Assembly: GCA_024628785.1 (NCBI GenBank)
Contig: CP102404.1
Coordinates: forward strand, 372,001 to 436,000
Source of the DNA: Fusobacteria bacterium ZRK30
GTDB taxonomy: Bacteria > Fusobacteriota > Fusobacteriia > Fusobacteriales > Fusobacteriaceae
DNA length: 64,000 bases
Direction of reading: 5' to 3'
Part shown: piece after piece, positions 13,870-14,899 of the stretch
Numbering within the stretch: the stretch's first letter is position 1
Layout: every line of letters begins with the position of its first letter
The notes under the pieces: model-generated
What the model was told of the DNA's origin: nothing
What the model saw: the letters and a program-made list of their open reading frames with translations, nothing else
Databases searched by the model: none
Translations under genes and position numbers: made by a program

Positions 13870-14244
13870 TTATTTTTCCATAATAATCTCACTGAGTTCA
13901 ACTTTAAAATCTTCCCCCTTAATATTATTCACATGAACACTCTGCCCTAAAAAAGTAGAACGTTCATTGGGTTTTAAGTTATAAAAATTCATCCTCCCCA
14001 CAATATGGTATGGGGTATTTTTATCTTTAAACATAACAGTAACTTCTGCCTTTATAATTTTTTTGTCTGTATTATTTTTAATGATCCCCTCAAAATATTT
14101 TCTTCCTCCAATTTTTTCACTTAGTTTAACGTTTAAAAGTGAGACCTTATCAAGGGTAAAGTTATACCTCTGATGGCTGAAGGGGTTAAATGAGGCAAAT
14201 GAGATAAAAGATAAAATAAAAAATAAAAAAACAATTTTTTTCAT
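13870..14244 (-). CDS. Small secreted protein (paralogue of 25664-26020)
   Basis: A 124-aa protein with a clear signal peptide (MKKIVFLFFILSFISFASF). The mature part of about 100 residues is rich in beta strands, with a core like FEGIIKNNTDKKIIKAEVTV and FYNLKPNERSTF. The pattern of strand, conserved NN(T/S) turn and KxxxV resembles FxLYD-type beta-sandwich domains, but I do not recognise a named family. The same fold, signal peptide and ending (EI/DLIM) recur in the 118-aa gene at 25664, so the two are paralogues. A frame extension of 14 codons upstream is rejected because AAGGAGT lies just before the ATG at 14244. Location is probably periplasmic. Confidence 0.65.
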   Translation of the reverse strand: MKKIVFLFFILSFISFASFNPFSHQRYNFTLDKVSLLNVKLSEKIGGRKYFEGIIKNNTDKKIIKAEVTVMFKDKNTPYHIVGRMNFYNLKPNERSTFLGQSVHVNNIKGEDFKVELSEIIMEK

Positions 14245-14385
14245 ATATTTACTCCTTTTTAAAAATAATATTATTACACCTTTCATATACTGAGGAAGTG
14301 ATCAATTCCTCCAAAAAATTAAATTTAATTATTCAAAAAGAGGAAAAAATTTTTCATGATTTTTGTGATTTATTTTGAAGGTTGT

Positions 14386-14751
14386 TTAAAATCTTTGCTG
14401 GATAATATTTTTATTTTTCCGTGCCAATGGATCCAAGGAATCCATCTTTAAAATAAAGTTATAATCAGCGATAGCCCCGTTGTAATAATTCAACTTCTCT
14501 TTTATTATTGCCCGGCTATGGTATGCTTCTAAATATTCAGGGTTCAGTCTTATGGCTGCATTATAATCCTTCATTGCACCCTGATAATCTCCTGATTTAA
14601 ACTTTAGATTTCCCCTGTTAAAATAACTAATTGGATTCTCCGGGTTACGTTTAACAGCTTTATCACAATTTCTGAGTAATCTAGTCTCCTCTTTTACTTT
14701 TTTACCTAAACAATTATTTTGAATAATTTTTTTTTTAAGAATCTTAAGCAT
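14386..14751 (-). CDS. TPR-repeat protein under a c-di-GMP riboswitch
   Basis: A 121-aa protein with two clear tetratricopeptide repeats and a degenerate third: PISYFNRGNLKFKSGDYQGAM, then YLEAYHSRAIIKEKLNYYNGAI, flanked by a basic N-terminal region (MLKILKKKII) without a clear signal peptide. TPRs form superhelical protein-binding surfaces. The ATG has GGGGG 6 to 10 bases upstream. A GEMM-I riboswitch occupies the leader directly before this ribosome site, so expression should answer to cyclic di-GMP. That links it to surface, motility or adhesion behaviour. The partner protein is unknown. No GGDEF, EAL or HD-GYP gene is in the window. Confidence 0.75.
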   Translation of the reverse strand: MLKILKKKIIQNNCLGKKVKEETRLLRNCDKAVKRNPENPISYFNRGNLKFKSGDYQGAMKDYNAAIRLNPEYLEAYHSRAIIKEKLNYYNGAIADYNFILKMDSLDPLARKNKNIIQQRF

Positions 14752-14763
14752 ACTACCCCCTAA

Positions 14764-14855
14764 AGAAACTTTGGTAACTGGCTGTCATATCCATTGCAGG
14801 ACTCAGACCCTATAGTTTTGCGTCACAAAGTTTCCCTTGTTTTGCCCTTTTCAAA
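14764..14855 (-). ncRNA. Cyclic di-GMP-I (GEMM-I) riboswitch
   Basis: On the minus strand the leader has, in order, the class I hallmarks: AAAGGGCAAAAC, a hairpin closed by a GAAA (GNRA) tetraloop (ACAAGG-GAAA-CTTTGT), GACGCAAAAC, a variable P3 arm (GGGTCT...), and GACAGCCAGTTACC. The G that contacts the ligand in the GGGC block is kept, which in known GEMM-I RNAs goes with c-di-GMP rather than cGAMP. Downstream, CAAAGTTTC (14765-14773) is perfectly complementary to GAAACTTTG (14826-14834) of the tetraloop hairpin, a ready alternative pairing next to the ribosome site. A TATAAT box lies at 14880-14885. Confidence 0.85.
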
Positions 14856-14899
14856 ATTATTTTTTTAATACATTATGTTCATATTATAACAAAAAAAAT

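Follow-up and report, generated by a model that had tools for sequence, protein, structure and literature searches.

Locus and leader organization

The window, a 64,000-nt stretch of DNA from a marine fusobacterium, contained a single Rfam match, a c-di-GMP-I (GEMM-I) riboswitch aptamer (RF01051) located upstream of a gene encoding a 121-aa tetratricopeptide repeat (TPR) protein. Leader and gene are both on the minus strand, and all coordinates are given as window positions (Table 1). The ATG of the gene (14751) lies 18 nt past the end of the aptamer with no terminator between them. The original prediction of a riboswitch upstream of a 121-aa TPR gene was confirmed. Transcription is expected to start a few nucleotides downstream of the putative extended -10 element TGTTATAAT; TATAAT is shared with the leaders of G055, G056, and G058, three other genomes in our survey. 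Downstream of the TPR gene is a 138-aa ORF (13870-14286, minus strand) that is probably secreted, has no Pfam match, and is 93% identical in G055. The two genes are separated by a GGAGGAA...TTCCTC hairpin and may therefore not be co-transcribed.

Table 1 Features of the TPR gene and its riboswitch leader
Feature	Positions	Strand	Basis
Extended -10 promoter element TGTTATAAT	14883..14891	(-)	sequence; putative promoter
P1 5' strand AAUUUUG; last base is G14 (Vc2 numbering)	14852..14858	(-)	Rfam alignment register
GEMM-I aptamer	14770..14856	(-)	cmscan RF01051
Tetraloop hairpin 5' arm ACAAGG	14835..14840	(-)	Rfam structure line
GAAACTTTG, GAAA tetraloop and CUUUG of the 3' arm; target of the alternative pairing	14826..14834	(-)	
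Aptamer tail GUUACC; contains C92 (intact); can pair with the SD-AUG spacer GGUAGU	14773..14778	(-)	
Switching segment CAAAGTTTC / CAAAGUUUC; P1 3' strand when bound, putative anti-tetraloop-hairpin strand when free	14765..14773	(-)	
Shine-Dalgarno (SD) region UUUAGGGGG	14756..14764	(-)	sequence; related riboswitches have their terminator 5' arm here
SD-AUG spacer GGUAGU, complementary to the aptamer tail	14752..14757	(-)	
TPR protein ORF, 121 aa	14386..14751	(-)	ORF and Pfam; no signal peptide apparent from sequence

The ORF scored above the cut-off for Pfam TPR_1/TPR_11. The AlphaFold model of the protein had a moderate pLDDT of 70.5 and matched generic and designed TPR proteins only, and we therefore rejected any assignment of function from the fold. 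Distant matches in cyanobacteria, Bacteroidetes, and other groups were likewise dismissed as generic TPR similarity. As modelled, the protein is a generic TPR array and probably a small adaptor-type (helper-type) protein. Our literature search found no report of a TPR gene under GEMM-I control or of c-di-GMP in Psychrilyobacter.

The original prediction had proposed a complete GEMM-I core, to be checked with the RF01051 covariance model. This was borne out, as the match covered the full-length model (positions 1-87) at 82.1 bits (E 1.2e-14, cmscan), compared with a gathering score of 35 bits. The GAAA tetraloop hairpin and the second hairpin arm were both present in the Rfam structure alignment, in which four positions were flagged as non-standard pairs. 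The register was fixed by G21-C46 and A47 (Rfam columns and Vc2 numbering), with P1 beginning at G14-C93. The ligand contacts G20 (G in model column 11), A47 (the A following the GC pair), and C92 (C in column 83) were all present, and P1, which closes the junction with G14-C93 as its top pair, consisted of AAUUUUG/CAAAGUU with 7/7 pairs. The assignment of Rfam columns to Vc2 positions relies partly on what we take to be the Vc2 sequence. In Vc2, the ligand contacts were named as G14, G20, A47, and C92 (PMC9049102). The hallmark of the cGAMP-selective GEMM-Ib riboswitches is A at position 20, and the A20G substitution turns Gmet_0970 to c-di-GMP (PMC6456294). Since the window leader has G20 rather than A20, membership in GEMM-Ib was ruled out, and c-di-GMP is the predicted ligand of the window aptamer. 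The riboswitch type is already known, and the locus is confirmed as a real further example in a marine fusobacterium.

Mutually exclusive pairings in the leader

The segment CAAAGTTTC is a perfect 9/9 complement of GAAACTTTG. It had been described as lying right after the aptamer core, as complementary to the 3' side of the tetraloop hairpin, and as bordering the ribosome site. The complement is real, and UUUAGGGGG starts directly after it. However, its CAAA still belongs to the Rfam model, whose 3'-terminal four positions it fills, so that the segment is not strictly downstream of the core, and its target includes the whole GAAA tetraloop as well as five bases of the 3' arm. The original prediction also overlooked that CAAAGUU is the P1 3' strand of the aptamer itself. 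Because CAAAGUU both forms P1 and pairs with the tetraloop hairpin, it is a classic shared switching strand.

We collected 144 RF01051 matches with their flanks from 98 Fusobacteriota genomes, 37 of which have at least one match, and searched the first 25 nt after each aptamer plus its last four bases against the tetraloop and 3' arm. A 9/9 complement was found in only four of the 144 aptamers, all four before orthologues of the window TPR gene, and these four leaders also ranked first by duplex energy. When the 29-nt stretch was shuffled, a 9/9 Watson-Crick complement arose in 11 of 200,000 shuffles (2,218 of 200,000 with G.U pairs allowed).

Six full-length orthologues of the TPR gene, from Psychrilyobacter and Ilyobacter, were present in the 98 genomes, two of them in the genome of the window. 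The alternative pairing is 9/9 in four of their leaders and 8/9 in two, namely the C5 leader, which is in the same genome as the window (CAAAAUUUC; an A.C mismatch in the alternative pairing, P1 kept), and the Ilyobacter leader, where it includes two double changes. Beyond a one-base bulge, UGAC/GUUA lengthens this helix, so that each of the six leaders has 12 or 13 of 13 possible pairs. P1 has 7/7 pairs in the five Psychrilyobacter leaders, with G.U and A-U variation. A third, exclusive helix can form between the aptamer tail GUUACC (GUUGUC) and the spacer GGUAGU (GACAAC), with two doubly changed (compensatory) pairs between leaders; this register is no more than suggestive, as the spacer alignment required manual positioning of a one-base gap for the window and G055. 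It should be noted that the orthologues are few and related, so that conservation among them partly reflects shared ancestry and does not amount to six independent observations. The aptamer, the gene, and the mutually exclusive complementarities with their conservation are established features of the locus.

The tetraloop-hairpin complementarity might instead be a by-product with no switching role, CAAAGUUUC being kept solely as the P1 3' strand. The AU-rich leader and the intact P1 of all five Psychrilyobacter leaders, including C5 with its broken alternative pairing, are in keeping with this explanation, which we regard as possible though unlikely. However, the final bases of UUUC lie outside P1 and are nevertheless conserved, and Ilyobacter retains 8/9 pairs through two double changes. 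The confinement of the 9/9 complement to TPR leaders and its rarity in shuffled sequence also argue against a by-product.

Level and direction of control

No intrinsic terminator was found in the 160 nt downstream of the aptamer, which speaks against a transcription-terminating riboswitch; control of the TPR gene is most likely translational. We consider it probable that the c-di-GMP-I riboswitch controls translation initiation of the TPR protein, with c-di-GMP acting as an ON signal through the shared-strand fold. Consistent with this, the aptamer ends 18-19 nt before the ATG in 6/6 full-length orthologues. In the bound state, c-di-GMP would hold the three-helix core and P1 would form between AAUUUUG and CAAAGUU. 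The switching segment would thereby be held fast upstream of the SD, and the tail GUUACC would be kept off the start region. In the free state, CAAAGUUUC would invade the tetraloop hairpin GAAACUUUG, forming a helix of about 13-15 bp with GUUA/UGAC as its extension. In addition or instead, the aptamer tail would pair with the SD-AUG spacer. Initiation would thereby be hindered, so that c-di-GMP would most likely act as the ON signal.

The free ensemble and a bound model were compared; in the latter, the core helices and G14-C93 were enforced where alignable and J1/2, G20, and C92 were kept unpaired. When the folded stretch of the window leader began just 5' of the aptamer and stopped shortly after the AUG, its lowest-energy apo fold was the anti-hairpin helix; with a longer upstream stretch, a different fold was slightly better. 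The SD was mostly unpaired in the free fold (0.70-0.83, folded to the AUG). The cost of opening the SD-to-AUG region was 0.7-3.3 kcal/mol free versus 0.2-3.6 kcal/mol bound, and the SD unpaired probability barely differed. The interpretation in the original prediction was partly supported. The alternative pairing is real, most of it is preserved in the orthologues, and in the shorter stretch no apo fold of the window leader had a lower energy. However, it does not bury the SD, and a direct on/off fold at the ribosome site was not supported as stated. In both folds the window SD is predicted to be accessible, and the modelled thermodynamics favours neither direction for this leader. Free-fold energies were rejected as a clear SD switch in the window, as they depended on the stretch folded and gave no free/bound difference. 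SD sequestration under a constraint leaving J1/2 free was also dropped, since such a fold would occupy G20.

Among the orthologues, the opening cost fell from 6.7-10.0 kcal/mol (apo) to 0.6-4.2 kcal/mol (bound) in Ilyobacter, whose leader is clearly predicted by the model to be ON with c-di-GMP. It fell from 3.6-6.6 to 1.0-4.7 kcal/mol in the C5 and G056 leaders, which are weakly predicted to be ON, and rose slightly on binding in most stretches of G055 and G058. The little-changed or opposite modelled SD accessibility in the window, G055, and G058, the A.C mismatch in C5, and the OFF direction of Vc2 count against the ON model, and we lean only somewhat towards ON rather than OFF for the window leader itself.

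In a translational OFF switch, the free anti-hairpin fold would leave the SD open, and P1, stabilized by c-di-GMP immediately upstream of the SD, would hinder the ribosome as in Vc2, or, in a variant of the same reading, the P1 5' strand would do so by pairing with UUUAGGG. Vc2, the best-known translational GEMM-I switch, is an OFF switch in which P1 plays a key role (PMC9262584), and the mostly unpaired SD in the free fold of the window leader points in the same direction. However, pairing of the P1 5' strand with the SD, which is possible in Ilyobacter and in the G054 prepilin leader, was rejected as weak for the window because its register needs three U.G pairs and a mismatch; the fold prefers CAAAGUU. 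The opposite direction is strongly predicted for the Ilyobacter orthologue. We regard an OFF switch, the main rival of the ON model, as unlikely.

Neighbourhoods and probable mobility

The six riboswitch-gene units occur in five different neighbourhoods. Flanking genes are common only to the window and G055, and among the other four, whose surroundings differ, DNA similarity is limited to roughly the promoter-to-stop interval. The Ilyobacter copy is on the conjugative plasmid pILYOP02 (NC_014634.1), adjoining a recombinase gene; its annotation says no more than tetratricopeptide repeat protein, and the gene table of NC_014634.1, which omits RNA genes, shows no riboswitch. A TPR gene remnant with an internal deletion and no aptamer was found in the Psychrilyobacter MAG CSMAG_2932 (L054, 2449-2642), and one of its flanks matches a flank of the intact unit in G056. 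Because the aptamer and gene recur in differing surroundings, including a plasmid, the promoter, riboswitch, and TPR gene behave as a portable unit, and these surroundings suggest that they have moved together. The score of the window match, its intact ligand contacts, and the conserved placement before 6/6 orthologues in five neighbourhoods make a chance match or a decayed aptamer with no regulatory function extremely improbable.

Both contact bases G20 and C92 are intact in the window leader, in line with c-di-GMP as the ligand. At 5/144 loci, position 92 is U instead of C; four of these are TPR leaders (C5, G056, G058, and Ilyobacter). The Vc2 double mutant G20A/C92U loses affinity for c-di-GMP and binds c-di-AMP (PMC9049102; PMC7288161), and no study testing a natural G20/U92 riboswitch came up in our literature search. 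U92 could modestly be read as lowering affinity, or more boldly as changing specificity. We speculate, with considerable doubt, that the module is portable between chromosome and conjugative plasmid, that the U92 leaders are G20/U92 variants with lower c-di-GMP affinity or an altered choice of cyclic dinucleotide (e.g., 3',3'-cGAMP, its A occupying the alpha site), and that the C92 copy in the window is their c-di-GMP partner. As C92 and U92 copies coexist in one genome, ligand choice and affinity tuning are directly testable.

c-di-GMP signalling in the window genome

The genome of the window (G000) encodes 28 GGDEF domains above the cut-off and five EAL domains, indicating that c-di-GMP signalling is present, and a domain search of this genome found no PilZ domain. 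With GGDEF proteins so numerous and no PilZ receptor detected, riboswitches may be a main c-di-GMP output in this and similar Fusobacteriaceae. The genome has ten c-di-GMP-I riboswitches (L001-L010). A tandem pair (C1:553405 and C1:553571) precedes a gene for an L-type lectin-domain surface protein, and the SBP_bac_3 gene after riboswitch C2:1557197 (L002, 1723-3093) appears to be frame-split here and open in the relative G055. The locus studied here would add a small TPR adaptor-type protein to this riboswitch-borne output, as a riboswitch-gene pair recurring as a unit in unrelated surroundings. Furthermore, its leader is compact, and a small set of mutations would suffice to test the three helices that compete in it.

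Comparison with related riboswitches

In 91 of the 144 loci, a terminator was found whose 5' arm begins inside the aptamer, so that aptamer and terminator are mutually exclusive; these loci would be ON switches. A subgroup of 16 loci (Psychrilyobacter, G054, and Ilyobacter) has an 11-bp helix, UUCUGAAAAAG/CUUUUUUAGAG, with 14 to 16 of 16 paired per position and one doubly changed pair. This helix uses G20 and would thus exclude ligand binding. Its 3' strand (CUUUUUUAGAG) serves as the terminator 5' arm in the majority of these loci, but the Ilyobacter TPR leader and the G054 prepilin-like (N_methyl) leader have their SD there. In the Psychrilyobacter TPR leaders, the helix is degenerate and UUUAGGGGG occupies the same place, which suggests that the TPR platform may derive from a terminator platform.

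Several other loci had unusual features. Position 20 is A in 14/144 loci (e.g., L010, C1:788022, in the window genome) and C in four, so some loci may prefer cGAMP or another ligand. At L075 (G054:C14) and L078 (G054:C1:80200), the ORF appears to start within the terminator hairpin, the terminator 5' arm being the SD, and the U-tract apparently encodes the hydrophobic part of the signal peptide of the SBP_bac_3 protein. At L080 (G054:C25:25587), the prepilin-like gene (N_methyl) lies 18 nt past the c-di-GMP-I aptamer, and its SD can pair with a strand 5' of the aptamer core; the locus is predicted to be a translational ON switch.

The window leader shares with the RF01051 class the core helices, the GAAA tetraloop, G20, A47, and C92, and differs in its AU-rich P1, in a downstream strand shared with the anti-hairpin pairing, and in regulating a small TPR protein. 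The terminator-type c-di-GMP-I riboswitches of SBP_bac_3 genes in the same genomes have the same aptamer subtype and downstream layout, with a terminator 5' arm CUUUUUUAGAGG where the TPR leader has its SD. However, these riboswitches use a terminator, and G20 is taken up in their long alternative helix, AUUCUGAAAAAG/CUUUUUUAGAG, which is degenerate in the Psychrilyobacter TPR leaders. In Vc2 of Vibrio cholerae, too, a GEMM-I aptamer acts near the ribosome site and P1 is the switching helix (PMC9262584). Vc2 was reported to be OFF, however, and its pairing partners differ from those of the window leader, for which ON is tentatively favoured on the basis of the Ilyobacter orthologue.
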